A stretch of 64,000 nucleotides of DNA from positions 148,192,961 through 148,256,960 of the forward strand of contig OZ038382.1 in the NCBI GenBank assembly GCA_964036045.1. Reading direction: 5' to 3'. This stretch comes from Eutreptiella sp. 'Long Island Sound 2002' (Eukaryota > Euglenozoa > Euglenophyceae > Eutreptiales > Eutreptiaceae). The translations under genes were made by a program, and so were the position numbers. The notes beneath the pieces are model-generated. The model ran no database searches. It worked only from the letters and a program-made list of their open reading frames with translations, and had not been told where the DNA came from. Below, one piece after another: positions 29,280 to 61,627 of this stretch (within the stretch, counting starts at the first letter, position 1; every line of letters starts with the position of its first letter).

Positions 29280-29816
29280 TCATATCTGCGGGATTCTCTT
29301 TCGTCTGCGTGCCATCAGGCGTTCCCTCTGCTCGTCTCCCTCTCTGTCCTCCATTCCCGTCTCTCCCCCTGACCGCCTTTGCCGCCAATCTGGCCGGCTC
29401 CGTGCTTCCATCTCCGTGAGTTTTGGGTTGTACCTGATGACTGGATCACGCATGTCTTCCGCCCGCGCCTCCAACTGCGTCTCTCTGCACGCCATGCGTT
29501 CCTTGAGATGTTCCACCATACGCCGCAACAGCCTGTGCGCCATGGCCTCCGGTGCCACTGTATGCTCCTGGAGCGCCCGCCACAGCGGTTTCACTATCAC
29601 CATGTGCCATAGTCCCTTGCGGTGCCCTTCTCTTCTCAGCTCTCTCTCCACCGCGCTTCTGCCTCTCGCACCCTTCTTGAGTAACGGGACGTCCTGATCC
29701 CGAACCAGTGGTTCCTCGATCCCCTTATACTGTGCACACCGCATGAAGTATTCGTATGTTTCTTGTCCTTGGCCACAGTGGCATCTCATGTACTCCTCCG
29801 GGAGGTCCATACCCTT
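29280..29816 (-). pseudogene. LINE ORF2, C-terminal part with zinc motif
   Basis: End of the LINE reverse transcriptase protein. Shows the CCHC-type motif MRCHCGQGQETYEYFMRCAQ (about 29735-29795), typical downstream of the RT in many LINE ORF2 proteins, then a basic helical tail ending at 29280. Removing transposon K and one copy of its TT duplication joins this in frame to the part ending at 37350 (...MRWYRH then KGMDLPEEY). The ORF formally extends to 29885 by reading into the K inverted repeat, which is not LINE. Confidence 0.85.
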
Positions 29817-29843
29817 CCCTACGTGCTCATTTGGATCAGGTAC
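29817..29843 (+). repeat. Left terminal inverted repeat of K
   Basis: Begins CCCTACGTGCTCATTTGGAT; exact reverse complement of 37323-37349. Followed within 25 bp by the first GGTTCAACC sites. Confidence 0.92.
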
Positions 29844-29864
29844 CCTTGAATTACCCAAGTGAAA

Positions 29865-29925
29865 CCGTGGTTCAACCGAGTTCAACCGCGCACTTTCATT
29901 ACGGCTTCCCCACGGTTGAACCCCT
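29865..29925. promoter_or_regulatory. K palindrome cluster, left subterminal
   Basis: Several copies of GGTTCAACC or GGTTGAACC, some with CGCG arms, just inside the left TIR. Placement is that of transposase-binding subterminal repeats. Confidence 0.6.
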
Positions 29926-30312
29926 ATCGAGGTACAGCAACAAATTGCTAAGTAGCAACCTGAAAACCGCTATTTTTCAGCCCTGCAAGAGATGCCACAC
30001 CCCCTAAAAAGAATGTTTTTGAAAACCCTCTTACCTCATTGCTGCAAAACACTGGAGACATATTTCTCTTGGATCATATTTCACGGCGGTGGTGTTGTAG
30101 GTGCCAGTGGCAGCGGCTGTATTGGTGAAACCGCACGGCTTCACCGTCAACTTTTCGTTAGGCGTGGTGACATACACCCCTGCGCCTTGTTCGGATTCCC
30201 CTTAGGACTTTGGACCCTTTTTAGTGAACAACAATTACATGCAAGCCTACACTTGATTGTCAGAAGCTTGTTTCCTCATAGATTGCACTAAAATGTAACC
30301 GGCTTTCGAGGT

Positions 30313-30365
30313 GGTTCAACCGCTGGACAGGCGCGCGGTTGCACCGGCTTCACCGGTTCAACCGC
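30313..30365. promoter_or_regulatory. K palindrome cluster downstream of the dioxygenase exon
   Basis: Includes GGTTCAACCGCTGG, GCGCGGTTGCACCGG and CACCGGTTCAACCGCTG. It follows a possible splice donor (CCAAG/GTGAAG, about 30402) and so may be intronic or 3' untranslated. Confidence 0.55.
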
Positions 30366-31787
30366 TGTTGCACGAAGCGCTACACAAAAAACACATCTTC
30401 ACCTTGGGAAGCCAAACGTGACCAGTTTGTTCTGCATCGCCACAGGCAGACGTCCCCATGCAATGCCTGTGTACGGTACGAGCACAATGCGCTGTCCAGA
30501 CCACGCCAGAGGCACGTGGGGCCTAAGAGCGTTAAACATGACCCCATATCGAGGATCCACAATGTGTCCCCATAATAAATCATGCCCCCAACGTATCCAT
30601 GCAGGACGAGAAGGCCCATTTGCACAATGTAGGGCACTGGTAAACAGTTCCCCCCCCACAAAATCACCCAGGGCTATTTCCCCCGTAAGGGGACTGTCAT
30701 CCTTTGGATGCGTATGTACAAGCATGGGATGATCGCCCACCCCATGGACCACTGCGAGCGCAGTGTAGGTTAGTTGGGGGAGTACACTTCGGATGTGTGC
30801 GTTCACGCGCCGGACCAGTTCCGGATCTCTCCTCGTTTGCACTGCAACTTGCACACGGTGATGCCCCTGCACTATTACGGCCCCCCACAACTGCCTACGG
30901 TACCGTGCTCCATGTCCTTCCCGCCACTGCCGCCCCCTCATTCCCTTGAGGCACGTAAAAAGTCAGTCGTTTGGGAGTGGCTCTTCCTTCACGTGAGGCA
31001 CTGGTGCACCAACCTCTGGGGCTGCCTCTTCATTATCTTCCTGCTTACATGCAGGCATTTCCTCGTCCTTCCGCGCTTCACCAACCTCCTCAATCTCCTG
31101 TTGCCCAACCGGGGCTGCAGGCGAGTCCTCCCCACTGTGCTGGTGCTCCTGCACCCCTGGACCAGCAGACTCCACCTTTTCCTCTTTGACCACCTGTTCT
31201 TCACTCTCCTTTGGCTCTGGCACCTCCGGCGGACTAGGCACAGGAATGTGCTTCTCAGTGTCCTTTGGCTCTGGAATCACGGGCGGCGTCGGCACAGGAA
31301 CCCCATTGTCACTGTCCTTTTCCGCTTCAGCTTCCGGCGCGGGAGTGACCTCCTTCTCCTCGAGTGGACTGTACGAGGGGGACTTCTCCTCGAGTGGACT
31401 GTACGAGGGGGAGTCCTCCATTGTCTTCTTGCCCTCCTCATCGATCGCTTCCTGTTTCTGGGCGCGGCGCTCTTTCAACGCCTCCTCGGCAGCGTGGGGG
31501 TTACTGAAGCTTGTGTCCTTGACTGCAATAACTGGCCACGTTGTCCCAGCTGCATCGCCCTCCTCCTCCCACTGTGGGGGAAGGAAGACCAATTCTTCCC
31601 CCTTTTTGGGCCGGGGGGTCCCCTTCGTGGCTTTCCCCGGGGTACCCACGGCCAGACGTGGCTCGCCATCAGGACCGTCCACAATGACCCATCGAATCGG
31701 CGTGTTGGCCGCCCATCCGAACCGCTGTCGCAGCTGTTTGCGTGTGTCCTCAAGCGCCAGTCGTCGTTGTTGGGCTTGATCCAGGCT

Positions 31788-31874
31788 CTGCAAAAAGGAA
31801 AAAATAGTGAAACCGTGGTTCAGGCGGTTCAAGCGTGCGGTTGAACTACACTTCACCGGTTCAACCGCGCACAC
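31788..31874 (-). other. Intron 3 of the K dioxygenase gene
   Basis: 87 bp, donor GAG/GTGTGCGCGG, acceptor TTTTTGCAG/AGC, phase 0 on both sides. Nearly half is made of GGTTGAACC and GGTTCAACC sites. Confidence 0.7.
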
Positions 31875-31972
31875 CTCCAGAGCTGACGCATGCACCGATT
31901 CTGCCCTGATCGCTTTCTCCTCGTCGCCATCCTTGGATCCCGCAGCCAACTCTGTTGCCAGGGCCTTTACAT

Positions 31973-33182
31973 TAGGGATGCAGGTTCGAATTCGCACGAA
32001 TTCGCTCGAATTCGAATTCGCCCCGAATTCGCACGAATTCGTGGACCCCTCCGAATTCGAATTCGCAACTTCAAATTCGAATTCCCCCTTGATTCGCTTG
32101 AATTCCCCCGAGGCTTGGATTTCCATAGGCACCTACAATTTACCTTCACCTCTTTGCATATGGGTATGCTTGTACCCACTACCATATGGCATAAAACATT
32201 TCAAGTCCAAAAGCTTCCATAACCTTGCAATTTTTGTTGTTTGTTGTTGCTTGCATTCACCGTGCCTAAACTATTTGACAAAAATAAAGACAAATCAAAA
32301 CCAAGAATTCCAAATATCGAGGTATACACCCTTCCTTCATTCTTTCAAATACCTTTTGGAAAAAAAGCAACGAAGCATGCAAAATCACCAATCCACACAC
32401 AAACCATCACATGTGAACCACTTCTTGCCCTTATTGGGCCTTCATTCATTGTATTCTTGCATTGAATCATGGGACTTGAATTCATCTAAGGGAGAGGATA
32501 ACAAAGACAAGGGAAGCATAAAGCAAACTAGCAATGGGCATTCAATTAACATTATTATTGTCATGATGCTCAATAATCATCACTATGTGATTGTTACAGT
32601 ACACTGTCAAATCTGGACTTTTTCGAACCTCGTAACAAGGATTTCTCTGCGTGCACGGAGCCGACGAGGGCAAGGAGGGTACCAAAATGAAGGGTAGGCA
32701 AGGGGGAACACGTTTTGACTGTCCAAAGTCGAAAAAAAAAGGCGAAAATGAAAAGTTCGCGACGCGGTTTTCTCCGAACTGGTGCGGTTTTGGGAGGAAC
32801 GGAGGGCACCGTCGTGTTCAGTGCAACGAGGCGGACACAGCGGTGCGTTCAAAACTGAAAAACAAGTTTTTTTCTCGGGAACCAGTAGGCATGCACCGCA
32901 CAAGCAACTGAATGGGTCAATCAGAGCACAATGATCATGGTTTTAATTGTATAAAGTCAAAAAAATTATTGCATGGCACAGTTCAAAGTTAGGTTTTCAT
33001 CTGGAGAAAAGACGGCGCACGCGTGGTCATTTGGCTGTCACCTGCGAATTCGCAGTGCGAATTCGCCCCGAATTCGCAGTACTGTGAATTTCAGGCCGAA
33101 TTCGGAGCGAATTCGCGCTGCGAACGAATTCGCAGCGAATTCGGCGAATTCAAATTGAATTCGCTGCGAATCTGCATCCCTA
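31973..33182. mobile_element. hAT-like non-autonomous element, 1,210 bp
   Basis: Flanked by an exact 8-bp duplication CTTTACAT (31965-31972, 33183-33190). Inverted ends read TAGGGATGCAGGTTCG and TAGGGATGCAGATTCG, fitting the hAT pattern of 8-bp duplications and YAGGG-type termini. Both subterminal zones (31986-32112 and 33048-33172) are packed with GAATTCG-type repeats. The centre is AT-rich with no transposase ORF. Removing it with one duplication rejoins the dioxygenase exon in frame (DTAQDVK then ALATELAAG). Confidence 0.88.
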
Positions 33183-33953
33183 CTTTACATCCTGCGCCGT
33201 GTCGCTGGGGAGCTTGCCGGAGTCACTGTCGGAACTGGGGGCCGGAACTACCTTCTTCTTCTTCTTCTTTGGGATATGCTTTGCGGCTGGGACCCATTCG
33301 TGCTCTTCAAAAAGGGGGTCTGACTCGTCCATCCCACTGCTGTCCGGGGCAATTCTCCGCTTTTTCGAGGAAGCACCGCTGCCAGTTTTGGCTTTCTTTT
33401 TCGGCTTCTTGTCGCCAGAGACTTGGGCCTTCGCGGGCGGTGCTTCAGCCTTTGCACTTGTCCGCTTCTCCTTCCGGAGCTCCTTCCGGGCGGACTGAAA
33501 CAGGGACTTCGGAACCACTTTGCTGCCAGGGGTGCTCGTCTCTTCGGGTGGCGGTGGTGCTGGAAGACGTGGAGGCTTGGGGGCCTTTCCACTGCTCTCG
33601 GATGCTGCACCTGCTCCAAGTGGGCGGTCCCACACACTCTTGTAGAACTCCTCAAAGCTCTCTCCCACACGACTTGGTTGGGGCGCGGTGGTGACGGCTG
33701 GACTGGACTCCAGAGGCGTTGACCTCTGCTGTTCTGGCGCAGGACTGCCTTGCCCGGCATTGCCCAATTCCCGCAAGCCCCGCTGCACGCCACGACTCAT
33801 GCGGTCGACCACTTGAGCGGCGCCAGGGATCTGCCGATACCACACGTCCCACCACTCCACGATGGGCATGGGTGGCCATCGCCCGCGGACGACAATGCCA
33901 GGGCCACGCCGATCCACCACGAACATGTGCTCAGGCACATCACTGGCGGTCAA

Positions 33954-34109
33954 CTGCAGAGAAAGCAAGGAGGCCGGTGAACCGCAGAAGTGGGGGAACG
34001 CGATTCAGTGTGTAGGAAGGTGATGCTCAAAAGTGCATGGTTGAAGACGGTGAAGGCGGTTCAGCCGCACGGTTAAACCCGCTGAAACGACGGTTGAACT
34101 ACTGCACAC
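33954..34109 (-). other. Intron 2 of the K dioxygenase gene, with palindrome cluster
   Basis: Donor CAACAG/GTGTGC, acceptor TCTCTGCAG/TTG; phase 0. Contains degenerate GGTTSAACC sites between 34038 and 34100. Confidence 0.65.
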
Positions 34110-34523
34110 CTGTTGCACCCCTTGGATCGCTTGAACCACACTTGGCTGCACGAATGGCGATGGTGCCATTGCCGGTGGCGCCGCTGCTGCCGTCGCGGCG
34201 CTTGCCTTGGCCTTCTTGTGCTTTCCCCCACCTGAGATGGTGGCGCCCATACCCAGCATGCTGCTCGGAGTCGCCGTGTACCGCTGGACCTCCGATTCGT
34301 CGAACCAGCCTGGTGGCAACTCCACCGGGGCCTTGAAGAAGAAGCGCGGACCGTGTCCTGCGCTGTGACCACCGCCGCGGCCCACGGAGTCCGCGCCAAA
34401 CCAGGACGCGCTCCTGGCAACACCGCACCCCGCGGTCGCCCATATCCTGAACAGGGCATCCAGCCCTGGTTCGTCCAGGGACATGTGGCCCTGGGGGTCG
34501 CTCGACAGACCCACACTGAGCAC

Positions 34524-34669
34524 CTACAATCAGAAAAACGCACATCAGAACATTCATAAACAGAAAAACACACAGCAACGAAACGCAGCATGCGCCATAT
34601 CAAAACATTTACCAAAAGACCGAAAAACACCAGCACAATCAACTAGCAAACAACAAGACAACAGCAGAC
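34524..34669 (-). other. Intron 1 of the K dioxygenase gene
   Basis: Donor TGGAAG/GTCTGC, acceptor GATTGTAG/GTG, phase 0. T-rich on the coding strand; the only clear K intron without the palindrome. Confidence 0.6.
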
Positions 34670-35045
34670 CTTCCACTCCGAAAACTCCCCGGCGCTCAGG
34701 CACTTCGTCTCCCAGGGGTACAACTGTACCCCATCCTTGTCTTCTTGGCGGTGCTTCTTCATCCACAGCGTCATGGCACGGCGGAACACGTACTTCGGCG
34801 TCACGTCAGCCAGCCACCGCCACTCAGGCGTCTCGGGCGCCAGGGTGGTGTCGGGGTTGCAGGTGTTGTGGACCACCACTTTTTCCTTCAGCGGGAACTT
34901 GTCTGCCAGGTGGGGGGCTGGAGGCGCTGCCGCTGCATGTGGCGCTGGCGCGGCAGGGGGATCGGCGCCTTGGCCCGTACCCAGTGCGCGCAGGCAGTCC
35001 TGCAAGGCCTTCCCCAAAGACTCGGGGTCCATGGTGCAAACGCAC

Positions 35046-35134
35046 CTGAGAGAAGCAGGGGTAAAACCGTGGGGAAGCCGGTTCAACCGCGCGGATGAAC
35101 CTCCTGAACCACGGTTGATACACACACACACCTC
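35046..35134 (-). promoter_or_regulatory. Spacer between K transposase and dioxygenase genes
   Basis: Just after the transposase stop there is GAG/GTGTGTGTG, then GGTTCAACC and CCGTGGTTCAGG sites, and a CTTCTCTCAG/GTGCG acceptor shortly before the dioxygenase ATG (35032). It may be a 5'-leader intron, or the two genes may share a transcript. Confidence 0.45.
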
Positions 35135-37117
35135 CTAGTTGCCAACTTCCAATTGAGCGTGCACTACGTGCTCATCTTCCCGTTGCCGCCGCCCGTCCCA
35201 TCGAGGCATCTCCTTGTAGAGGAAGGTGCGCTCGTGCGCATGGCGGAGCATTGCCTCATCCTTTTCCTCCTTGGTAGCCTTACGACCACCACCCCGGGAA
35301 CTTGTGGTTAGAAAGTTGTCTTTAAAGACATAGTTAAGCGACTCAACAATGTCGCCACAAAACATGCCCCCCCCCCCCCAAGGTTGCAAATTACCCAATA
35401 CGATGGCCCCCTCGTTGCGGAGCCACAGCAAGTAGGGGGATCGTTTATGGGGACATATAGTGTTTTGAAACCTCTTTGCAATTTGTGCACACCCTTGGAC
35501 GAATGGATCATATGTCCACCGATAGATAGCGGTTAGCAATTTCCCCATGTCCTCAACGGTAGTGGTGACATGTGGTGTTAGACGCAAACTCTTTGCAATG
35601 GGCAACCAATTGGCAAACAAGTGCCATGTCTCTTCCCCATCGGGGAAGGACCGGCCTTTCAAAGAAACATTGGTCTTAGCGTCCTTTAGGAGGCTTTGAA
35701 CCTTGGATCGTTGTGGTACCGTCAACATTGTGGCTTGTGTGCGCACAAACGTTGTTAAGTATTCACCACATCGTATCACAAGATGAAGAACACACATGAT
35801 AACACACCCTATACGGTCATCCACTTTCAGTAATGGACTTTCGATGCACCCTTTTGCGCCAACACAACTAACTCCTTGTTTCCTATACTTTAGGAATTTT
35901 GCTTCAAGTCTTGTACTTCGTCGCCATTCACACCCTACCAATCTTTCTTTCTCCCTAGACCATGTCGCAAAAGAATAAATTGAACCAATTTCATAAAATG
36001 TTGATAGACCAAGTATATGACGAAGCCAAGGGCTATCGCCTCCAATAATGACAACCGTTCGCACCCAAAACCCTCGGAGCAACATGTAGCCACGGTCAAT
36101 AATTTGTTGTATTTTTTTTAGTGTCTCTCCAAAGAGGACACGCACAAGATCCGTTTCATGCTCACTTACGAGAGCAAGATCAAGGGTCCAATTGTAGAGC
36201 AAAGTTCGTGCTTTTTGCATGTGGTTTGCAAAACCACATGCAATTTGGCACCATGACCTTGCTCAAAATGGAAACCCATCACCACGCATCATAAGTACAT
36301 AGGGGTGATCATCCCTAAATCTTGGGAAGTGCATTTCTTCTAGCACATCCCTTTGATCACCTATATATTGTATCCAATCATCCACATCCCAACGAACCCC
36401 AACTCTTCCATCCTTTATGGTCGTTTTTAGTACTTGTCTCTTACTTAACGTGGACCAAGCTTTATCCATCGTTGCATACGACGGAAAGCAATGTGTCCAT
36501 GGGACGGTGCTTGCACGGGTTTTCTTCTCTTTGGCATCGGCCCACGAAATAAGCTTCTTGTACCTAGGGACGGTTGAACCGAGAAATTGGGATAAAGTGC
36601 GCGGTTGAACCGGCGGCTGAATGGGTTGCCGTCATGGCACCAAAAAGCGTGCAATGGTACAAACCACAAAGTATTCACATTTGTGACGCGGGCAACACGT
36701 TGCAACTCATATGTTCATGCTTTGGGCAACATTAAGCGATTATTTTGCCGTGCAAACGTTGTCATGAAGCACAATCACAATTGTTCATTTGTGATAAGGG
36801 TTCACCTGCACCGTTGAACCCCGTTGAACCCCGTTGAACCACTTGTAGGCATGTGTGCATTATGCCACATACCTTCGCTTCGGCATCCCAAGGTCCAAAA
36901 TGAGGCGCACAGCGTCGGATCCTGTGAAAGCTTTTTTTGTAGCCCTTTTTGTCTGTTTGGAAGCCCTCTGTGTGTTACCAATTCGGTCAGCAAGTTGTTT
37001 CCATAGGCGTTTTGTCGTGCCGTTTGTGCAAAAAAAGGTGAACAAGTTGTCCACCAGCTGTTGGTCCCCCCACCCGCTGTAGTGGTCGTTCACCACTTGC
37101 AGCCAGTGGTGGGACAT
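35135..37117 (-). pseudogene. K transposase-like gene, two exons, one internal TGA
   Basis: Model: exon 1 37117-36873 (MSHHWLQVVNDHYSGWGDQQ...) and exon 2 36563-35135, joined with matching phase (AG/G); donor CGAAG/GTATGT, acceptor CCCTAG/GTAC. Together about 557 aa. Exon 2 has LMMRGDGFP, then GGDSPWLRHILGLST, VLHLVIRCGEYL, WLRNEGAIV and CGDIVESLNYVFKDN followed by SSRGGGRK. The spaced Asp/Glu residues and the GD...L...G, LHL.IR..E.L and E.LN..K blocks resemble large DDE transposases of eukaryotic cut-and-paste transposons, but I cannot name the superfamily. TGA at 36263-36265 interrupts exon 2 in frame after GDGFPF. Its position beside the right TIR supports a transposase role. Confidence 0.6.
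36564..36872 (-). other. Intron of the K transposase gene, with two palindrome clusters
   Basis: 309 bp, GT-AG, phase 2. Clusters lie at both intron ends: 36811-36841 (three tandem GGTTCAACGG-type copies) and 36568-36612. Confidence 0.65.
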
Positions 37118-37322
37118 TTTTTGATTTTTTTTAAAAAAGCTTTGTCACGCGTCAGTTTCAGGCGGTTATGTAAATATTTTGTTCAGAAACGCGCGCGCCG
37201 CTGGCGCAGCCGCCACCGCCAGCGCTGGCGGTGGTTCAACCGCGGTTCAACCGCGGTTCAGCGGTTCAACCGCGCCCCTTCCGAGTTCAACCGGGTTAAA
37301 CCGGGTAAAACCACTGTGTGAA
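37118..37322 (-). promoter_or_regulatory. K right subterminal region and putative transposase promoter
   Basis: Between the right TIR and the transposase ATG. Contains at least four GGTTSAACC sites (37230-37312), two with CGCGGTT arms, plus a CGCTGGCG-rich inverted stretch near 37195-37230. Also an A/T tract next to the ATG. The cluster could serve transposase binding and promoter control together; that is inference. Confidence 0.5.
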
Positions 37323-37349
37323 GTACCTGATCCAAATGAGCACGTAGGG
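37323..37349 (-). repeat. Right terminal inverted repeat of K
   Basis: Perfect 27-bp match to the left end in inverted orientation; immediately inside it (37230-37312) is a dense cluster of GGTTCAACC and related sites. Confidence 0.92.
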
Positions 37350-40300
37350 TTATGTCTGTACCATCTCATGATCGTTTCACGCACCGGCACCTGCCCCGAG
37401 ATCGCCTGCAGCCCTCTGGTTTGCAGCCTTTTGGGCAGCGATTCCGGCCTCAGCACATTGGGGTAGTGGACCCGCTGTCCCACCTTGCCCTCCAAGTACT
37501 CGTTCAGCTCTACCACCTCCGGCCCCCCTCGTACTTGGGCTAGCATGTGCACCAGCTGTGGATACACCCTTAGTTCCTGCTTGCCTCTGTCCTCCTCCAC
37601 CACCCACCTGGCCTTCTCCTCTTCCCCGACCCTTGGAGGTATATGCACCAAGTGGAGGTGCCCCTTGCTCTCTGGCACCCTCCACTCTGGTTCCTGCTCC
37701 TTATTCACCGCTTGCGCCGCCCCATCCGCCTCATGATTCCCCACTCCCGCCCTGTGTGACTCCTGTTTCACCAGGTGTATGACTAGGGGCACTTTCTTCA
37801 TCTCCAGCCCGTGCCATATCGCGTACACCTGTGACGACAGTCCTGTGCCCAGGGCCTCATGCAGTGGCCTGCTGGCCAGTCTCCTGAGGGACGCCATGTC
37901 CGCCTCCGCGTCCACCAACATCCACACTTCCCGTACGTCCTCCCCTATCTCCCCAACCACGTCCGCCACCGCCTGCACCTCTCCATGGGACGCTGCTCCG
38001 TACACCATGTTTTCCACCACACTCTCCGTCACCTGTCCCATCCCCTTGACCCTTACCGCCGCTGCCCCCGCCATGAGCGGCTGTCCTTCCACCCCGGACC
38101 CGTTCAGAAATAGCACCACCCTCTCCTTCGTGGGCTCCGGTATGCGCACCACCTCACTCGGGTAGTGGCAGTATACTTTGTGCTTCCCAATGCCATACTC
38201 TCGTACCCCATCCCCGATGCTTAGCTCTCTTACCCCTCTGTACACCGCCCACTTATTGTCCGTCCTGGCCTTCCATCCCTTCATCACCACTACTCCGTGG
38301 CACCATGCCCTGTCCCCTTTCGCCCTGCCCTGCTCTAGGTATGCCTGTACCAGAACCAGGTACCATACCCTGTCTGCTGGCAACCCGTGGACCGTCAGCC
38401 TGATCCTCCTCGCACTCTCTCCACACTTGTGGCCCACGGGCACTATGGGCGCCTCCTCGTCGAGCCTCCCCGTGTCCGTCATCCGGAAACTCACCGCCAC
38501 CCCATCATCCTCTTCTTGTAGTCCCCGCACTGTGTCCCATCCAAACTGGACCCCTGTTCTTTTCCCCTCCTTTTCCTCTCCCCACCAGACCTCCACGTCC
38601 CCCTGGGCCTCCTCATCCTCCCGCACCTCCTTGGGCAGCCGCAGCACCGGCCCCCACCACTGCCCCCTGGCGTCCGCAGTGCGCATGGTCGCGTTCGGGA
38701 ACGCCCACGCCGTCAGTCGTAGGACTGGCCACGGGATTTGCCCCGCCTCCTTGGTGCACCTCCAGCACTGGTCCCTCTGTCCTGCCTCTTCTGGGATGTT
38801 GTCTTTCCGGAACATATCTGCATGGACATCATACCACTGCCCGGCCGCACTCTGTACCTTCCCCCTCGGTCCTTTGAGTCCCAGCGGCGCACACAACAGT
38901 ATGCCCGGTCTGGCCTTGTCCCTCTCCCCCCTGTCCAGCACCACTCTCTCTTGCTGCGCCCCCTCTCCTCTCCCGCCTCTTGGCTTCCTCTGCTGGATCC
39001 CCCACAGCGCCACCCACTCGTTCCACATCGCGCGCATCCTCCTGCTCCACCTTGCGCGGTCCTCTTGTCCTCTTGCTCTCCTCATCATCCACCTGTATAC
39101 ACCCCATTCCACCACCCTGGTGTCCCGATAGAACTCCGCATGGTGCAGCCCCGCCTTCTCATATTCATTCAAATCCTTCCTGCGCACGTGCAGCACCTCC
39201 ATGTTCACTCCTTCCTTCCTGATCCACCGTACCGTCCCATGTGCCGCCCCCCCGAAGTCCGTGTCCAGGACCAGGACTGGTCCCCGCCTACCGCACGTCC
39301 TGTTGGTTGCCAGCATGTGTTCTTCCCCCGGCAACACTGCCTGTAGGGCGCGCCACATGCGCTCCTTCTTCCCCGCCGCCAACCGCCTGCGCCGGTGCCA
39401 CACATAGCGCGGGCACATGTTCTCCTCCTTCTGAACCTCTGCGACCCCGTGATAGCACACCCGTCTCACCACCTCTTCCTGATTGTGGCACATCCTGCTC
39501 AGCGTCCTCGCCGTGTGTGCCCTGTACGCCTCCCCCGCCGTGGGCATCCCTTCTCCATAGTAGGCCTTCGGCGACCGCAACACGCACCACGGCACCTCTG
39601 TGGGTATCCCCTCATACCCTCTGATGAGCCTCCGCACTTCTCCCTCCACCTCCTCCAGCTGCTCCCTCCAGTACGGGAGGTGCATCCCCTGGTACCCTAC
39701 CGCCGCATTGAGCACCGCCCGCAGGTAGTACAGGGTCGTCTGCACTGACGGGGGGTGATGCCGCAGGACCACCAGCATCGCCCTGAACCCCCTGACTAAT
39801 TTGTCAGGTAGCCTGACCCCCCTCGCCTCCATGGCCTGCACATGTCCCAGCACCACCGCTTTCTCTGCCCTCTCCAGCCATGCCACTCCGTCTCCTACAT
39901 CCAGCGCCATGCCTTCCTCTCCACCCCTCCTCAGAACCGCCGACTTCTCCGCGCTCCAGACAAGGTGGTTATCCCTCCCGTACCTCTGCATCAGGTCCTG
40001 TACCACCTGTTGGGCCTTTTCATCCCGCGCCATGGGTACCGCATCGTCCACATACGCCTGCGCCGGCGACGTGTGTGGCGCCCGCGCCAGTTGTGGATAT
40101 TCCCGCGCTATCCAACTCATCAGGGGGAGCATGGCCAGCAAGTACAGGAACGGGCCCTCCACCCCGCCTTGTGGCACCCCGCTGCCTGGGGTTACCAACT
40201 CGGTACACCCCATCCCCGTGGCGACCGTGTACCTCCTTGAGCGCAGGTACTTTTCCATGAAGTCACCATATGGGAGTCCTAGCTGTTGCCATACCTCCTC

Positions 40301-41221
40301 TATGAGCCTATGCGGCGTGTTGGGGAACGCCCCCTTCACGTCCACAGACGCCATGAACGCCTCTAGGTCCTCATCATCGAGGTGCATATCGTACAGGAAG
40401 CTTGCTTCCTGTGTGGACCTACCCGGCACTGACCCCCACATATTGTCCGGTATGACCCCCGCTGCATACAGCCGCCGCTGTATCCTCCCGAAGATCACCA
40501 TCCAGACCCACTTGGCCTCTGTGACGGCACAGCATATTGGTCTCCAGTTCCCCGGCCTGAGGTGATCCCCCTTCTTGTACAGGGGCCGCACCTTGCCCCC
40601 CCATTCCTTTGGGGGCTCGCCTGTGCGCAACACCTCCGTGACCCTCCCCGCTAGACCATCCAGCTCTGGCGCCTCCAGGTGCTGGTACGCCTCCGCCACC
40701 AGCTGGTACACTCCCGGGCTCTTCTTCCCCTTGAGAGCCTTCACTGCCTCTTTAATTTCCCGTAGCATTACCCTGCTGCGGTGTATGTCCTCGCTCCGTT
40801 CCGCTGTGAACACCCGCGGTAACGCCCTTACCATTCTCCTTGTGATCCCGCTTAGCTTCTGCTGCCCCTGGTTGTGCTGCCTCCTGAAACTCTGCGCCGG
40901 CTCCTCCAGCACTTCCTTTTTGTTGCCAGTGACCCTGCCACACTGCAGTCTCACCGCCCTGATTTCCTTTGGTTCTCCAGCCTCAGCGAGCTCTCTCATG
41001 TACCGTAGCGACTTGTACGGCACCGCCCTTTCCATGTATCTCTCATGCTCCGCCACCACTTTCTGGTATATCCTCTCGTGTTCCTCCTGCACAGCCCTCC
41101 TCGCTGTTCGCACCCTCTTCTTCGCCTGTGTCACCTCCGTTTCCCACTCCGTCCCCTCTCCTCGCGCCCGTGCCTCGACCTCCTCTTGCTGCCGTTTCCT
41201 CAGTGTGGCCACCAGCCTTTG
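37350..41221 (-). pseudogene. LINE ORF2: reverse transcriptase and RNase H
   Basis: Reading starts in mid-protein at the truncated 5' edge (the apparent Met at 41224 comes from the target duplication). After a basic helical linker come RT blocks: RPLYKKGDHLRPGNWRPICC, ASVDVKGAFPNTPH, GVPQGGVEGPFLYLL and the catalytic AYVDD box (about 40043-40057), then thumb and connection regions. A C-terminal RNase H-like domain has LFLNGSGVEGQ, SHGEVQAV and NHEADGAAQ (about 38100-37720). No endonuclease is present. The frame is open for 1,290 codons to the K insertion at MRWYRH; its C-terminus lies at 29816-29280. Confidence 0.9.
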
Positions 41222-43809
41222 CATATGGTGCGCTACGAAAGCGAAGAAGTGGGCTTCTTCCTGATCCTCTCGGGTGGTCGCGGTCCAGAGACTTTGGCCG
41301 CTTCCACTCCCTTCCTCCGCGGTGCCGACCGTGTCCTCCTTGACCTCTCGGTGTTAGCGATCTTCCCGATGACCTCGATGTCCATGGCCCTGTCGATCCT
41401 GCACGTGGGCCTCGTTCTTGGCGTTGAGCTTCAGCTCCACCGTGATGTACTTCACGATCTCGTCCAGGCTCATGCGGGCGAACATGACCTGCATTTTCAG
41501 CGGCTCTCCGCGCCCCCACTCCGCGTTGTTGAGGCGCATCAGCCTTTGCCCCATGGTGTCGCTGAACACCTCCACGTAGACGGCGTTCTTCAACCCAAAC
41601 ATTCGGCTGGGCTCGCCGAGGTTTCGCCGGAAAAAATCCATTATTCCGGCGTGGGTGTCCTCTGATGCCATGATCCGTACAGCCACGCGATTCTTTGCTC
41701 TCTTCCTTTCCTCGTCCTCCACTCTCCTCTTCCAGTGGCCGGGGAGGACGTCCTTCAGCAGGTGTCGGATCTCCCTGGACTTGTTCCAGTACTCCACCAG
41801 CTTGAGGCTTCTTCGGTACTTGCGGATGTACCGATTCCATTCCCGGACCCTCAACTCTCCGCGCTCCAGCGGCAGCGGAATGGACCACGAATCCTCCAAC
41901 TTCTGGTTGGGGGCGTCCACTTGCTCCTCGTCCTCCAGCCACTGGAGGCAGGCCTGCTCCATCTGCATCAATCCCTCGGGGATCTGATCCCTGAGCTCCT
42001 CCTTCAGGTCCTGCGCCAGCCTGTGTGGAAACGTCTGACATACCCACTTGTCCCTTGGCGCTCCCTTTGTCTCGCCGACGACCTCCTCGGCGAAGTCCTC
42101 CCAATCCAGGATGAAGTCATCCAGGTTGGAGGGGTTGCCATCGTAATAGGGGATTTTGATTCCCCTGAGGTCGTCAATCCTGATGGTGTCTCCGACGTGC
42201 GCAGCCACCACCCCACCTAGACGGATACCATCTGTGGCCGGGGGGTGTGAGTACACTCCTCGTACATCCCTCTCCTCCATGGAGTGCGGTCCAGTTGGGC
42301 CTGAACCCATGGGATTTGGGATGCAGGACGGACTTGCTCCACCAGCTGTCCATATCCCCGTAGTGGGGTCCTTCACCCACAGGTTTCCGCCTGGATGGCC
42401 TCGACCATGTCCGTCGGCCCTTCCCATGGTTCGCCCCTGCATGGTCTGGATCTCATCTTCCGCATAGACTGCATGGGCAGTCGTAGTGGTCGGTGGATCC
42501 TGGGCGGCATGGGACATCTGTACCGTCAGGCTCCTCAGGTCCGTGGTTGTGTGCTCTTCCCGCATGGACCCAGCCGGTGCCGTATGCTCCCCGAGCATTA
42601 TGGATTCGCTGAACATGGGAACAAACGGCAGCGCACCCGGGTCAAGACGCTGAGGCGCGTAAGGTGCCTCTGCAGGGCCGCCCATGGGTTTCTCCATGGT
42701 GCTCCTGAGGGTCTTAACCCGCTCCACCAGCTCTGCCGTTGCCAGCCTTGCCGGGAGCTCCGGACCCGAGGCGAGGGGTTGTAACTCCTCTATCCTTTTC
42801 AGGCGTCCCGACATATCCTCCACCAGGTGGAGGAGGCTGTCCACCACTCGTGCTGCTTCTGCAGGGCCATCTCCAGCTTCTCCCGGTACCAGTCCTGCTC
42901 CGCTCGCAGCTCCGCCATGTCTCTCTCTGCTTCCGACTGGTCATCCAGGATCCCAGCGATGTGCTCCTCTAGGCCGTCCTTCTGGTTGTCCAGGCGGTCG
43001 AGGTGCTGCACGATGGCGTCCATCCCCATCTTTGCATACTTGCCGATGAGGAAGGATACGTGCTCGCAGTGGCACTCAACGTGCTTTCCACCTGATCCGG
43101 CGCATCCCACGGTTCCCGGCGCCTCGGACTCCTCGGCCATGGGTGTGTCGCCCATGTTATCCCGCGTTGGCTCCGTGTGCCGGGCCACAGGCGCCGTTCT
43201 GGCTCTGGTGGGCCTCTCCAACGCCTCGGCGTCATGCTCCAGGCTGGGTTCGGGGGCCGTGTGCGTCCTTGTGGGCGGTCTGGCCATCTCCTCCAACTCC
43301 GAAGGGAAAGCCGTCCGATAGCCATCGGAATGCCCCTCGGAATCTGCAGCTGACCACAGCCTGACCGGGCTGGGATCCGTCTCCATCGCCCTCGCTTCCG
43401 CCGCGGGTTTTGGGGACCCGCGCTTCCGGTAACGCCGGGCCCTGCCGTTGCTGCCAGTCTCCTCCAACTCCTCCGCAGCGGAGCTGAGATTGCAAGCCTT
43501 GCGGCATTGCCTTTCACACATGGAGGCCAGGTCCTCCATGTCTAGCCCATGTCCTACCAGGGCTCTCCGTCCTGAGCATCTTCGTTCTTCTCGGGCTTCC
43601 AAGTCCGGCGTCGACTCCACGGACTCCACGATCTGCACCCGGGGCGTCCTTGGGCAGGGCTCATGAGGGCCGAAGGCCCCGGTGCGGCGGTAGGGGGCAG
43701 GTACTCCTCTGCTACCATAAAGAAGGTCCCTACCAGGACCGGCCCCTGCTTCACCCCTTCCACCATTTCCTGTCACTCCTATGGTCTTGCTTCTCACCAG
43801 GTTCTGCAT
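41222..43809 (-). pseudogene. gag: D/E gag, N-terminal part, frameshifted
   Basis: Starts MQNLVRSKTIGVTG at 43809, clearly related to B gag. The first 336 codons (43809-42799) lose frame near 42850, where B has QQRVVDSLLHL and D/E has lost one base; the frame change continues as 42847-41354 with the gag core IKIPYYDGNPSNLDDF. A TAA at 41354-41356 (after HREDR) interrupts it again, after which the frame runs open through FFAFVAH to the LINE edge. The remainder is at 22706-22200. Dead copy. Confidence 0.88.
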
Positions 43810-47799: not shown

Positions 47800-50700
47800 A
47801 TGGTAAATTGGCAAGAAGCGGGCAGGACGTGGCCGCGGCCCCACCCCCATGCAGCACGCCTGCTGCGTGGATTGGTATGGGACCAGCACTACCGCCACAG
47901 CCAGCCCCAGTGCGAAGGCGGCATGCCCAGGAGCTTCGAGCTCCGCACGGACATCGCCCCCGACCGCCTGCAGGCCGTGGAGGACTGGCTGCGGGCGGAA
48001 GGATTCGCCTTCCGCTTCCAGCAGAGGCGCTGGAGGACGTGGGCCCGGCCGGACAGGCCCGGCGAAGGGCTGCGCCCCGACGGGATTGAGGAGGACGAGG
48101 ACCCCAACGCCTACCCGTCGGGCGCCTCGATCAATGTCTCCATGTGGGACATGATCGAGAAGAAATTCCCGGAACCGGGGAGCGAGCGCAGGCTGCAGGG
48201 CAGCAGCAGCGCGTCTCCGGTGAAGGAGAGACGGTCCGCCGGGGACAGGAAGCGGGACCGGAGGTGGCAGGAGTACCAGGAGTCCCTGGCCGCCGAAGCC
48301 GCCCAAGGCGCCAAGGGCGGAACCCCAGCCCCCAGTCCCCAACGGGCCAATGGTGGTCATCACCCCGGCCACGCCACCCTCGGCGACTTCATCCAAGTCG
48401 CCAGGCAGACCAAGGCCAAGCCCCGTCAGCTGCTCCTGAGGCCCCAGCAGGCCCCAGCAGGCCCCAGCAGCGACGTGGAGTCGGCCCACCGCGGGAGGAT
48501 GCCGGCGGACCAGGCCAGCTCCAGCAGCAGCGTCGCTCCCGACAGGGACGTGGTGCGCGCCTGTGAGCGCGTCTGTGGGGTGCCCTGCAACCTTCGGGTT
48601 GTCCGGCAACGGGCCAGGCAGCACAGCGCTGCCGTGGAGGGCGCCGTCGGCATCGCCCAGGAGGAGGCTGCGGAGTGGGCGCATGGCATGGCCATCCACG
48701 CCCGGACCGTGGCGGCCATTGCGGCCGGACTCACGGCCGTAGCCGCCCATGGGGCAGCGACTGCCCAGGTCAACGGTGAGTTGGCGGCAGCCGACGAGGA
48801 AGCCCGCCTGACGCAGGAGGCCATTGCCTGCAGGGAGGCCGAGGTGAGGGCGCTGGAAGAGGCGCTTGCCCAAGAGAGGGCAAAGAAGGAGGCGGAGGAA
48901 AGGGCCCACGCCGAAGCGACGGCCAAGGCCCAGGCGGACGCCGCCAAGAAGGACGCCATCGAGCCCGGGCGACGGAAGGTCGCTGAGGAGAAGGCCAAGA
49001 CAGAGGCGGAGCTGGCAGCGTTCGAAGCGCAGAAGGCGCGGCTGCAGCAGGCCCGGGAAGCCGAGGCGGCTCGTGCTCGGGAGGAAGCCGAAGTGCGAGC
49101 TGCCGCAGCCACCGCCGCCGCAATGGAGGAGGCAGAGGCCAAACTCCGCCGCGAGACTCCCCCGGGAGGATCACGAGTGGAGACCCTTCGAAAGCTTTTC
49201 GAAGGGGACGCCTCCTCCAGGATGACGCTGGATGAGGCGGACACGGGCAGCAGTGGGAGGTGTGGCCCCACCGCCCATCGACGGAGGAAGGGCAAGGGGA
49301 AGACCCCCGAGAGGCCGCGGAGGCCAGCGGCTGGACACCCCCACGACTCCGACCCCTCCTTCACCGCCAGTGACGGGGATGAACGAGGCCGCCGACATCG
49401 CCAAGTGGTGGCTTCGACGGGCGGAGGAGGCGGAGACGTCCCCATGGAGCCGGAAGGCGAGGATGAGGATCTCCCTCCTCCCTACCGGAGCTCGGAGTCT
49501 TCCGAGACCGAGACGCCCAGGTGGGGCGACATGGACGAGGATGACGACATGGACTTCGGCATTACGAAGAAGCGCCCATCCTCGGACCCACCGAGGCGAC
49601 CCGGCGGAGACCCACCGGGACCCCCTGGCGGAGGACCATCAGGACCCCCTGGAGGACGCCCACCAAGTGGACCCCCTGGAGGCGGACCACCGGGCGGGGG
49701 AGGACCCCCTGGACCGGGCGGACCCGGTGGAGGCCCTCCTGGAGGACCCCCTGGGGACCCCGACAACCCACCAGGGAACGGCCACCCGGATACCACCTGG
49801 CGGTGGATTGTCTACCTCCGCAGGAGAGTCCAGTTGCTCGAGCTGGAGGTAGACACGGGCAAGGGCGAGATGGCTCGCATCTCCAGGGTCGCCGCGCGCG
49901 CGCAGACTGACCTGGACATCGCCAGGGCCGAGATCAGCGGGCTGAACACTGTCATCAGCGGCCTGCAGCAGAGGCTGGACGCGCTGGAAGCCCGTGGGAG
50001 CGTCGGCAGCAACCACCCACCCCTGGAGTCTGGCTCGTCGGACGACGGCTGGGGACCCGGACCAGGTCCAGGCAGACCCCACGCCCCCAGCGGAGCCCCC
50101 AGGAGTCGGCCCAGCGCCAGTGCCCCCTCTCTCACCGCCCCCTCTCACCACAGCGCGGGCTGCCGCAACGAGCGCGTGCCGCCCGGCAGTGGCAGTGAGG
50201 ATTGGCGTGATGAGTGGCTCAGCTCGGACCACCACAACCGCCATGATCAACCGCGGACGCCTGTACGCCCCCGACGCCCGGCACCAGCCCCGGTACCAAT
50301 CCCAATGGCTGGAGGACGTTATGGTGGACTCAGGGATGAGGTCCCCAGATGAGACGTGGAGTGGGATGTCGGCGAAGGTGAGGATCTGGACCTGGACCTG
50401 GAGGAGTTCGACATCAGCCCGCCGCGTGGTGTACGACGGGAGGCCGCTGAACGCAGCCGCCGGCGCCGTGATGAGGATGCGTACATGGAAGCAGTACGGC
50501 GTGAACATTTTGGTTCAGCGTACATGGAGGAACCGCCGCGTAGCCACAGGGATTCCATGGAGGAGATGGACGTGGCGGCCGTGGGAGTCCGTGGGCGAGG
50601 CCGATGGGAACCTCGGTCGACCTCGCGGCCGGCATTCATGGTCTCTAAGGCCGCGGATGCTGCCGTGTGGGAAGACTTGAAGGACATCAAGCCCCCCATG

Positions 50701-52119
50701 TACGACGGCAACCCCCTCAACCTCGACCGCTTCTTGGAGAAGCTGGACGATTGGGGGCTGACCGTCACTGAAGACCTGCCTCCCGCGGATGCGGAGAGAT
50801 ATGTCTTCAGACGGTTCAGGTACCGCCTGCCGGAAGTGCTCGGAGAGCTATACTTCATGGCGACCAAGGAGGGGAAAATCAAGACCCTCAAAGAAGCCAA
50901 GAAGTGGCTCAACGAGCAGGAGCGGGTGGACGCTCCGCAGGTGGCTGCCAAGCGGTGGAAGTCCATCAAGCTTGAGCATGATGGACGGGAGATCCGCCTG
51001 CGGGATTGGCGGGACTTCCGAGGGAAATACACCCTCTACCGCCGCAACGTGGAGGATTGGAACGAGGGTGACGAGCAGGCTCGCCTGCTCTCCATGCTGC
51101 CGGAAGCATGGATCAAGAGGGTCACCAAGGAGGAATCCAAGCGGGCCAAGTCCAACCACACGGTCAAGATGATGCTCCCCAAAGAGTATCATACCAACGT
51201 GGTGGCTTGGGCGAAGAAGAACGTGGCCCGGGATGTCAAACGGCACTCCCTGCGGAACGCTCTTCTCATCACCGTCTCCGGCGATCGCGAGAATACCGCG
51301 ATGTGGCGCCTTGACGAGTGTGAGTTGAGCGGCCAGACCATCCGTCTGCAGGCCATCCCGGCGCGGATGAGCTGCGACGAAATCCTGGAGTGGGTTGGCG
51401 AGGAAGTACTCAAGGAGTACCGAATCCTCCACCACACCCGCGGGTTGAGGCCCGGCGACCGCGACGTCAACTACGTTGGCGAGGGACCTGGCGGGGAAGC
51501 TGCCATGGACCCAGCGGGAGCCGGCGGCGATGAGACTCTCGTCGACGATGACGACGACGATGAGCCCGCCGAAGTGGCCGTGCGTGCCTTCGTGGCCAAG
51601 AACCTGAGCGCGGGGAGCAAGCCGGGAAACTGGAAGCCCCTGCAGCAGGGTTGGAGGAAGCAGGAGAAGAGGGACCCTCGCCGCATTGGCGACCCTCCGC
51701 TGTCCTTTGGGGAGTTCATACGAGCTCACCCTCAGGGCTGTTTCGTGTGCTATGGGAGGAAGCGAGGCTTCAACCATGACCACCGAACATGCCCCGTCCA
51801 CAAGGCCGACACGGAGGATTACAAGAAGGCGCACGGGTCGAAGAGGCGTGCGCCCGCGGGTATCCAAGAAGCCAAGGTGGAGGTGGACAGGGACGAGCTC
51901 TCCAAGCTGGTGTCGCAGGGGACCCAGTTGGCCAAGGAGATCCAGGAGATCAAGCGGAACTGGGTCCCCAGGTCGGACAACAAGAACAAGGAGAACAACC
52001 AGAACAACCAGAACAAGGACAAGGACAAGAAGCCTACTCGCAGCGAAAGAAGGAAGAAGGGCATCAACGAGGTTGATGCGGAGGAGAACACCCCTTCTTC
52101 CACAACCGACGCCCCCTAG
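47800..52119 (+). pseudogene. gag: Gag of element C, full length with one TGA
   Basis: First ATG in a strong context (GCTGCCATGG) at 47800. About 1,440 codons, very long for Gag. Order: an unrecognised N-terminal region; a long Ala/Glu/Lys coiled coil (about 48770-49150); a Pro/Gly repeat linker (49560-49790); another coiled coil (YLRRRVQLLELEVDTG, 49810-49990); the P/R-rich linker; the gag core IKPPMYDGNPLNLDRF (about 50690); an acidic run; and the C-X2-C-X8-H-X4-C knuckle near 51740-51795. TGA at 50350-50352 replaces a GGA of element A in the linker; the same frame continues on both sides. Ends at TAG 52117-52119, in frame with pol. Confidence 0.9.
52117..52119 (+). promoter_or_regulatory. 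Amber codon between gag and pol (C)
   Basis: TAG CGG AGC CCC TGC AGC, identical to element A for at least 50 bp downstream, with open frame into pol. Confidence 0.65.
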
Positions 52120-55100
52120 CGGAGCCCCTGCAGCCAAGGGCCCCAGCTAGGGCGGTCGCAGGATGGTGACGTGGGAAGCGCCGAACCATCCCAGTCGGGA
52201 GTCGATAAACAAAAGGGGACTGCCGCGGGTGGAAGGCCCGGTCCGGCACCCAGTCGCGGAGGCGGGGTGAGGGCAAGTGAAGGCACGAACCCTTGCACCC
52301 GTCCGTCCTTCGCGACCAAGAATGTGTTTGATGTACTACAGGATCTATCCGAGAGTATCGGAGGATCACCCGGACCGCAGCTGGATGCTGCAGATGGGCA
52401 GCCTGAGCCCTCTGTCCACGACCTGCACCAGCCGCTCGTTGAGCTTCTGGAACGGCCGGAGATCCTGAGTTTGCACGCCGTGCGCCGTGTCGGTCGCGAG
52501 CGGCAATTGCATCTTAAGGTCCGTGCCTTATGCGGGGAAGTGGAAAAGGTTTTCGACGTGTTGGTCGACACGGGAGCTCAAGTCAGCTTGGTCAAGGCTG
52601 GCCTACTTCCGCCAGAGTGTCTGACCGACAGTCGGAAGCCTGTCAGGCTGAAGGTGGCGAACGGCCAGTACATGGTGGGAGGCACGAAGGAAGCGGCCAT
52701 TGGGCTGCAGTTCGTGAACCATCGTGAGCTGAGCCGCCCAGACCTCGGCAAGGAAATCCTCCTGCACGGTCGCTTCTACGAGGCCGAGATGGACTGGGAC
52801 ATGATCGTCGGGTACGACTTCATGATGGAGACGGACTCCGGCGTCCTCCCGGCCCAAGCCTCCATGACCCTGTACCAGGACGACCAACTCTCGTGGCTTT
52901 CGTCACCTGAGCACCATGTGGAATGCCAATGGATCCACCCCGAACGCAATCAGCTCGAAGTGGCCGCGCTGGACACTGAGCCAACTGGTCCTGCAAACCA
53001 GGAGTACGGCGTAAGGCCGGAAGTGGCGAGCCGAGTTGTTGCGGACTTGGGAGCTTCGGATCTGGCCCTGGATGCGTTCTCTTCAGGAACCTCCGCCCAT
53101 CTTCGGGTTTGTGAGAAGTACTGGAGCGCCCAGGACTCCGCGTGGAAGAAGCACTGGGGTCCGCATCAGGGATTGATGTGGATCCATTGCCCCCGTTGGG
53201 ACATTCCAAGAGCGATAGCGAAGATTCGCAAGGACCGCTCCAAGGCAGTGCTGGTTGTTCCTATGGGATGCACCGAGGAGGAAAGTACCCGACATTGGGT
53301 AGCCTCATTGACCAACATGACCTTAAACAAGGTCGTCCTACCGGCTGGAGAGAGTGTCTATCAGGACGCTAAAGGACAGCCCATTCCACCCCAGAGATGG
53401 CCAACGGAATTCCACTATGTGGATGGGGGCCTTGATCAGGCCGACGCCACGGACTTCGTGTGTGTCAACCGCATCATAGCGGAGCCATGGCGGCAATGCT
53501 TTGCGGTTCCCCCTGTTGACATCGAAGAATCGGATTCGGAAGACCCCCTCACTGAAGAGGAGTGGGATCTGGTTCAGGGGTATATGGATCAGCCCTTTCA
53601 CGACTGGGGAAACCAGTGTGAGGGCAAAAGCGAGGACAAGGCCTGGTGGGAAGTGGACTCGATCGTCTCTGGTTCCTATGACGGGAACACCTTCGTGCAG
53701 AGGGTGCTGGACCACCTATCCAGCCAGGACGAGCCAATCGGGGGTAACTCACCCACCTACGGCGATCTATTCCGAGGCAAGACCAGAGATGGCCCTTTGG
53801 GCCACCTGGGAAGACCGCCTGAGCCGAAAACGAGCGGGGTCGCTACCCCTCAAGTAAGCTCCGTGGTTCAAGTGCCCGGAAAAGCCAAGGCGGAGTCCGA
53901 TGACTGCCCCAAGATCCAGGCATTGAGGGCCAGGCTGAAGCAGAAGTATGGTGATACCTTCTTCAGCGGTAAGCCTGTGTTTCCCCCACCGGTGCGTGGA
54001 CCGTATGGCGAGGCCAAGATACGACTGAAGCAGGACCCCCGTGTGTATCGGCACCGGGAGTTTGCCCTGAGGGGCGAGAGGAAAGAGGCCATGGAGAAGA
54101 TCCTCCGTGACTTCATCCAGAGAGGCTGGCTTGAGCCGTGCCACTCCGAGTGGGCCTCTCCCTGCTTCGTCGTCCCCAAGAATGTTGCCGGTGAGTGGCG
54201 GCTCGTGGTCGACTACCGCGGCCTGAACGCCCAAACGCAGCACGACAGCTATACGCTGCCCCTCATTGAGGACATGCTGCAAAAACAACACCGGCGGAGG
54301 ATCTTCACGGTGATTGACCTGAAACATGGTTATCATCAGATGCCTCTCGCCGAGGACTCCCGTGCCTGCACAGCCATGAGCACCCCACTTGGACCTCTCC
54401 AGTGGAAGGTGATGCCCATGGGCGTTATCAACGGCAATGCGGCTTTTCAGCGGATGCTGGAGAATCTGCTTGAGCCGGTGCGCGACTGTGCGGACCCCTT
54501 CGTGGACGACGTGATCATCGCGTCCGGGGACCCCAGTATGAGCTACGAGGAGCTCCTGGAGGCACACGAGAGGGACGTCACTCGAGTGCTGGACCTTCTG
54601 GTTCGGCACAAACTCACGGGCAGCAGTGACAAGGCCACCATTGCGGTAAGCGAGCTGGTCTTTGCTGGCCACGTAGTCGGGAACGGGCAGCGAAAGCCCA
54701 TACCTGGCAAGGTGGCTGCGATTGAGCACTGGGAAAAGCCCAAGACGGTCTCTGAGCTACGGGCGTATCTGGGGTTCTGCAACTACTACTCGGGGTATAT
54801 CAAAATGTATGCCGAGTATGCAGCCCCCATGACGACCATGCTCAAGGGCGACCGAGAGGAGACCAAGAAGGGGTCCAAGAAGGCTCTGGTCTGGACAGCT
54901 GAGTCCGACCGTGCCTTTGAGGGGATGAAGCAGGCGCTGCTATCCGCAGTGGGTCTGCACCTCGTGGATCCCGACCGAGGGTTCGTCCTGCGCACCGACG
55001 CTTCCGACTACGCCATTGGCGCTGTGTTGGAGCAAGTGCTTGACGACGGGAGGCACGTGCCCGTGGCCTTTTGGAGCCGAGTCCTGGCGGAAGGCCAGAG

Positions 55101-61600: not shown

Positions 61601-61627
61601 CGTGGCCGGCCCCCCACGGGAACGCGT
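58605..61627 (+). repeat. 3' LTR of element C (3.02 kb)
   Basis: Near-identical to 44361-47383 and with the same 40-bp duplication. Ends ...GGGAACGCGT, then D/E LTR sequence. Confidence 0.95.
58758..59408 (+). CDS. LTR-embedded ORF (216 aa), 3' LTR of C
   Basis: Differs from the 5' LTR copy by a single noticed residue (GCQNR becomes GCRNR). See the 8803-9507 entry for the conservation argument; function unknown. Confidence 0.35.
   Translation: MFRAVKPRIGNRCTASGDLCIRISGINRVLFSYCFRQFLRFRSDTHCFDCWRLDRDLTVTASLTVYNGNFNAIRHEGSKAFRNCMDASAIFTSYTRNLNPNFSGCRNRIFDFDIPALDLTSFEWTYVLPYARINFPFILPSICLKDMGKTKLIREATCEGHISCCLRGMTIRKRGMYSQYSRRNLGSIICLASPHVRASVMDHGQEGRVCVVTLWP

Follow-up and report, generated by a model that had tools for sequence, protein, structure and literature searches.

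A 64-kb stretch of genomic DNA from Eutreptiella sp. 'Long Island Sound 2002' (contig OZ038382.1, positions 148,192,961 to 148,256,960; hereafter the window, in whose coordinates all positions are given) contains a 7,533-bp copy of a terminal inverted repeat (TIR) transposon, in which a transposase gene is accompanied by a second gene (gene 2) and, in the frame of gene 2, a TET/JBP-like oxygenase domain. The transposase-oxygenase pair is maintained in two diverged transposon families of this one genome, an in-frame TGA precedes the oxygenase domain in both, and the noncoding DNA of the element carries dispersed sites of the 9-bp motif GGTTSAACC. The explanation favoured here, the chances of which were judged to be about even, is a two-part, sequence-targeted anti-silencing gene beside the transposase, with a layout like that of the VANC system of Arabidopsis and a TET-like enzyme.

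The element and its copies

The window copy is bounded by TIRs (CCCTACGTGCTCATTTGGATCAGGTAC) that agree at 27 of 27 bp, and TT (+ strand) lies on both flanks as a 2-bp target site duplication (TSD); coordinates are collected in Table 1. Joining the flanks without the transposon gave an open frame (...AGA CAT AAG GGT ATG GAC...) in open reading frame (ORF) 2 of a long interspersed nuclear element (LINE), which has an RVT_1 domain (E 1.9e-17). Both element genes are spliced, lie on the - strand, and have frames that are maintained across copies.

The genome (2.28 Gb in 2,205 contigs) was searched with the oxygenase end of the element, which gave 692 first-look candidates, and with the transposase end, which gave 660. 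The best 40 of each were scored and all were 99-100% identical, so the family appears to be large and young, with the qualification that older copies would stay invisible when the best candidates alone are scored. Twenty of the 40 scored oxygenase-end places and 8 of the 40 transposase-end places were fetched, the latter set avoiding selection by the oxygenase gene, and TIRs were accepted with at most 4 mismatches each. Both TIRs were present in 18 elements (the window copy, 13 of 20 oxygenase-end copies, and 4 of 8 transposase-end copies); copies whose fetched stretch showed no second TIR (7 of 20 and 4 of 8, respectively) stand outside the duplication count. Identical 2-bp flanks were found in 17 of the 18, the exception being L055 (TA/AT), and the duplicated pairs include AT, CT, TT, AA, GG, TA, TC, TG, and GA. 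The ends read CCCTA..TAGGG, and the 2-bp duplication has no fixed sequence.

Thirteen of these elements, the window copy included, were full length (>5.9 kb), and transposase and oxygenase sequence was present in every one, with no full-length copy lacking the oxygenase gene among them; two (L042 and L054), though full length, lack parts of gene 2. Full-length copies without a nested insert are mostly 6.2-6.3 kb long (range 5.9-6.33 kb, with a deletion in the 5.9-kb copy L042), the window copy and ten full-length copies are 0.6-2.3% divergent, and the remaining 5 of the 18 elements are internally deleted. Within the transposase-end set, chosen without regard to the oxygenase, 2 of 8 copies were full length, 2 carried internal deletions, and in the other 4 a second TIR was not found within 6.6 kb.

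The transposase gene comprises 557 codons in two exons, and its frame is unbroken in 6 of 10 full-length copies, one of which has a changed splice acceptor. A candidate DDE triad is provided by D102, D183, and E414 (numbering of the translation of 35135-36583), which in an alignment of 41 relatives are conserved in 21 of 24, 38 of 38, and 24 of 27 rows with a letter, among other acidic residues. Substitutions shared by at least two of 11 elements were 3 nonsynonymous and 7 synonymous, against 57 nonsynonymous (5 of them stops) and 18 synonymous singletons, which points to constraint on the lineages that moved and decay after insertion. The element is a cut-and-paste TIR transposon, probably of the DDE type, and belongs to an unclassified group. 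A Pfam-A scan of the 41 relatives gave no convincing match, the best hit (E 0.0011) being to an unrelated family. Comparison of the transposase profile with the PDB yielded nothing meaningful, and the profile's score of 22.1 against seven viral proteins lies at the level of shuffled sequences (highest 21.8), where a value of about 22 carries no meaning. The TSD of the element is 2 bp, compared with 8 bp in Zisupton (KDZ) transposons (PMC12730594, accessible text). The conserved Cys columns between the second D and the E (246, 264, 365, and 377) include no pair two apart, in contrast to the C(2)C motif of the CMCT clade (EnSpm, Plavaka, ESTA, and Transib), and the ends differ from the 5'-CA..TG-3' of most members of that clade.

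The transposase P0012, about 51% identical to that of the window element's family (family 1), matches the same genome at 100% and belongs to a very abundant sister family, for which 8,785 first-look candidates were obtained and the best 86 scored (65 of 87 listed rows lack a stop). A sister element (L060 joined to L065) is 6,079 bp long, has the end CCCTAGTGACCCC with one mismatch in 24 at the other end, is flanked by TG on both sides, and has the gene order of family 1, namely transposase, gene 2, and oxygenase. Its gene 2 is 43%, 33%, and 35% identical to that of family 1 in three stretches, the last extending into the oxygenase, which shows 45% identity over 187 aa; other sister copies have a longer gene 2, retaining a part that is missing from L060.

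These results agree with a first-pass annotation of the window, made from the sequence by a model, in its claims of exact ends (27-bp TIRs, a TT duplication, and a restored ORF2 frame) and two spliced genes, and its question whether both genes travel together was answered positively in the 13 full-length elements and the sister family. The same annotation saw no obvious KDZ motifs in the transposase, a statement with which the Pfam-A result is consistent, judged without direct comparison to a KDZ sequence.

In-frame TGA, oxygenase domain, and motif

Gene 2 has four exons, each with a length that is a multiple of three, and had no match in Pfam up to E 10; hence no DUF1985 or DUF287 domain (as in VANC) was seen. 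Its in-frame TGA was present in the window copy and in all 18 fetched copies holding the place (19 of 19), the other 10 fetched copies being without it. In family 1 the context is mostly AAC GAC TGA CTT, after which the oxygenase continues in the same frame in the window model, and all three sister copies have AAG TGA CTA GCC, likewise in frame, at the homologous place. Readthrough or a small intron is therefore needed to add the oxygenase, and the single protein of about 1,000 aa described at first is not supported.

A combined alignment of the oxygenase domain and its sister matched TET/JBP-like proteins of viral contigs with hhalign (probability 96, E 2e-9); of these viral relatives, L013 is tied to the family by a match to PF12851 at 2.1e-5, below Pfam's own cut-off. 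The oxygenase itself had no convincing match among Pfam, PHROGs, phage, and PDB sequences, and a protein search with an approximate TET-type consensus gave nothing at E 0.01. A scan of viral contigs based on the alignment of the family returned 50 pattern matches, of which not one was confirmed, and a further core pattern gave nothing. The predicted model has a double-stranded beta-helix of the 2-oxoglutarate (2OG) oxygenase type, for which the best solved matches were NgTET1 (4lt5, 5cg8, and 5cg9); identity in the structural alignment was 17% to NgTET1 and 11% to CcTet (7w5p). Foldseek comparison with viral models gave mixed 2OG/AlkB and polyprotein matches, and an AlphaFold model from three sequences was unusable (predicted local distance difference test, pLDDT, 34.7). 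The first-pass assignment of a TET/JBP-like domain is supported by the viral match and the predicted fold; in the profile search proposed there as a check, a direct Pfam match was not obtained, and the indirect match through the viral relatives was. The C-terminal domain is accordingly described as TET/JBP-like, with a predicted 2OG-oxygenase fold and putative activity.

In the viral relatives, HxDxxN is followed by G(D/S/P)(F/Y)xGG 15 residues past the His; both element families have HxHP(K/R)DDS, with one residue more or less depending on the His chosen. The last His and the C-terminal Arg are retained in both families, SGQR and EGER aligning with GTR, GTK, GKK, and GNR of the viral relatives; in TET/JBP dioxygenases this C-terminal Arg or Lys serves 2-oxoglutarate. 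Judged from the alignment, HxHPxDD may represent a shifted site, a site of three His, or a site that has lost iron binding.

All 11 GGTTSAACC sites of the window lie in the noncoding DNA of the element (1,622 bp by the exon models); neither the 4,701 coding bp of the element nor the 56,467 bp outside it contain one. Each of 11 aligned full-length elements has 11-15 exact sites, none of them coding, and 11 and 12 sites were counted in the fetched stretches of L052 and L054, respectively. Over all copies the motif occupies six of seven noncoding segments (five in the window), and 7 of the 11 window sites lie near the two element ends. In the noncoding DNA of the sister family the commonest 8-mers are GGTTGAAC, CGGTTGAA, and GTTGAACA, which were absent from the coding stretches tested, and a related motif is GGTTGAACA.

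Under the favoured explanation, gene 2 would yield a protein of about 820 aa ending at the UGA, to which the TET/JBP-like domain would be added only on passage of a ribosome through the conserved stop or on removal of a short intron covering it. GGTTSAACC sites across the noncoding DNA of the element would be bound by the gene 2 protein or by the transposase, and this binding would draw the oxygenase to the element's own DNA; oxidation of methylated bases there would keep the element expressed and mobile.

Several observations weigh against this explanation. Foldseek places other 2OG and AlkB-type structures ahead, and the alignment used for the model included viral TET-like sequences, so that the fold is not independent of the sequence match. 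HTHPKDDS and HKHPRDDS are out of register with the viral HxDxxN, the ordinary HxD metal site expected at first is not borne out in either family, and the site may be altered or dead; the metal loop is, besides, modelled with some of the lowest confidence (residues 83-89, pLDDT <50). The oxygenase has one substitution common to copies, which is synonymous and too few for a within-family selection test, its singletons among 11 elements are 29 nonsynonymous and 6 synonymous, and its codon log-odds are near zero, though the highest of the six frames. Shared changes in the two parts of gene 2 before the TGA (4 nonsynonymous and 4 synonymous; 3 and 2) indicate weaker constraint than in the transposase. 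The stop is not universal, since P0004, a predicted relative, lacks it, and in family 1 it mostly precedes CUU (CGU in one copy, CCU in another) and not the strong UGA CUA context. The motif clusters, in turn, may simply be sites where the transposase binds, or may belong to short repeats.

The readthrough consensus from human cells is UGA CUA, best with G next; in the accessible text (PMC4359377) a UGA CUU context was tested as well, but the contexts described as high for readthrough do not include it. By this consensus, which may not apply in the present host, the family 1 context would be weaker than that of the sister. That a third, separate gene encodes the oxygenase, or that removal of a short intron across the UGA, and not readthrough, joins it to gene 2, was judged to be less likely than not. 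The window holds a 69-nt candidate intron (GAG/GTTGGT...CTCAAG/GG, slashes marking the junctions) of phase 0, which is the phase of all gene 2 introns, in-phase candidate donors and acceptors exist in both families, and in family 1 the eighth codon past the UGA is an ATG. The first Met past the UGA in the sister family, however, falls inside the oxygenase domain, no clear pyrimidine tract is present in the sister intron options (57 or 84 nt), and UGA CUA G is found in all three sister copies; short in-phase introns may suit family 1 better than the sister family.

Slightly less probable is a TET/JBP relative that has lost catalysis and would have a DNA-binding or structural role in the transposition complex, the motif arrays being ordinary transposase-binding sites. 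The displaced HxD and the many sites near the ends agree with such a role, for which the last His and Arg could also persist as structural residues; the conservation of HxHPxDDS, last His, and Arg between domains 45% identical is nevertheless as expected for an active site, and motif sites also lie distant from the ends, in introns and between genes. Less probable again is a self-addressed DNA demodification enzyme encoded by one gene with programmed UGA readthrough, which would give mostly a motif-coating binding protein and, in a minority, a protein with a domain bearing a new HxHPxDD metal site, enzyme and motif co-evolving in each family. A nonsense mutation of one founder, amplified with the element in a decaying passenger gene, would fit the youth of the compared copies (which would inherit the founder's stop), the stop-free P0004, and the lack of detectable selection on the oxygenase within the family, but is very improbable, being weakened by the sister family, in which gene 2 is 33-45% identical, a stop occupies the corresponding position in frame, and an open, conserved domain lies beyond.

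Features of the window copy

The window copy is not a working copy, because its transposase has a premature TGA and exon 3 of its gene 2 is interrupted by a nested hAT-like insertion. This insertion is flanked by an 8-bp duplication (CTTTACAT; 31965-31972 and 33183-33190), is rich in GAATTCG repeats, and was matched in none of the other 28 family stretches fetched. The host LINE is split by the transposon into 37352-42940 and 29280-29814, with an ORF of 1,368 aa (RVT_1) and, further upstream, an ORF of 528 aa. Internally deleted derivatives are represented by P0002, P0003, and P0005, three predicted proteins in which transposase pieces are fused to the oxygenase, and by L031, L039, L048, L053, and L055. 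The first approximately 350 residues of the predicted protein P0001 are unlike the element and are followed by a 92%-identical oxygenase domain. Elsewhere in the window, two stretches of nearly 12 kb (15-11725 and 49837-61627) are 93.7% identical and are possibly copies of one large element, and a 40-bp tandem unit was found at both 44403 and 58647.

Table 1. Coordinates of the element and its parts in the window
Feature	Position	Strand	Remarks
Whole element	29817..37349	-	TIRs, 2-bp TSD, copies
5' TIR, 27 bp	37323..37349	-	exact; inverted relative to 3' TIR
3' TIR, 27 bp	29817..29843	+	exact
TSD, one copy	29815..29816		TT
TSD, other copy	37350..37351		TT
Transposase exon 1	36873..37117	-	ATG at 37117; frame and gt donor conserved in copies; homologous piece in sister family
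Transposase exon 2	35135..36563	-	candidate DDE residues
Premature TGA in transposase	36263..36265	-	codon 182
Gene 2 exon 1	34670..35032	-	frames in copies; sister homology
Gene 2 exon 2	34110..34523	-	frames in copies; sister homology
Gene 2 exon 3, first part	33183..33953	-
Gene 2 exon 3, second part	31875..31964	-	joins first part directly in other copies
Gene 2 exon 4 to TGA	30966..31787	-	acidic, proline-rich tail
In-frame TGA between gene 2 and oxygenase	30963..30965	-	common to copies
TET/JBP-like oxygenase domain, 187 aa	30399..30962	-	frame of gene 2; stop 30399-30401
Nested hAT-like insertion, 1,210 bp	31973..33182		in gene 2 exon 3; ends TAGGGATGCAG
GGTTSAACC, 5' subterminal	37233..37271		three exact sites
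GGTTSAACC, transposase intron	36572..36611		two exact sites
GGTTSAACC, between genes	35080..35088		one site
GGTTSAACC, gene 2 intron 3	31858..31866		one site
GGTTSAACC, 3' noncoding region	30313..30363		two exact sites
GGTTSAACC, 3' subterminal	29869..29922		two exact sites

Comparison with known systems

TET-bearing DNA transposons of fungi were reportedly described in Iyer et al. 2014. TET/JBP genes are found in 11 transposon lineages of fungi and were suggested to remove silencing marks (Kojima 2025, PMC12730594), so the general idea of TET/JBP genes inside DNA transposons, raised in the first-pass annotation, was already published. Like the fungal transposons, the present one has the structure of an entire TIR element and carries genes for both a transposase and a TET/JBP-like protein, and very diverged TET-like types (PE type) occur in the fungi too. 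The pairing itself is known, and what is new relative to the fungi are the CCCTA..TAGGG ends and variable 2-bp duplication, which fit no fungal lineage with ends described in the accessible parts of that account, HxHPxDDS in place of H, D/E, and H in the usual register, and the in-frame UGA before the domain and GGTTSAACC arrays, to which nothing similar was found in those parts. TET/JBP proteins occur in green algae, and the accessible text of a review mentions no such transposon (PMC11065753); no report of a transposase-TET/JBP pairing in green algae, Chara, dinoflagellates, or algae was found in the accessible open-licence literature.

If the favoured explanation is correct, transposon-borne TET/JBP genes would extend beyond the fungi described so far and reach a transposase group named by no Pfam model here. 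One element would combine a base oxygenase with a motif array specific to itself, anti-silencing devices known so far separately, and would make it possible to test directly how selfish DNA might direct a demethylase to its own sequence and nowhere else. Readthrough of the conserved UGA, if it occurs, would be a rare programmed recoding in a transposon.

The oxygenase domain resembles NgTET1 and CcTet in predicted fold and differs from them in the metal loop. Outside the two transposon families, the closest relatives found by sequence are the IMG/VR viral TET/JBP-like proteins L003, L004, L007-L009, L012, L013, L021, and L022, which, unlike the element families, retain HxDxxN, the pattern by which they were selected. 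Compared with VANDAL21 and its VANC21 protein in Arabidopsis (PMC5735166, accessible text), the element has an oxygenase-fold domain by prediction, its gene 2 has no DUF1985 or DUF287 match, and motif binding and hypomethylation, demonstrated for VANC, are proposed here. VANC21 acts through a 9-base motif found mainly in the noncoding DNA of its own element, and the two systems are alike in having a second gene besides the transposase, a 9-base noncoding motif, and related families with related, shifted motifs.

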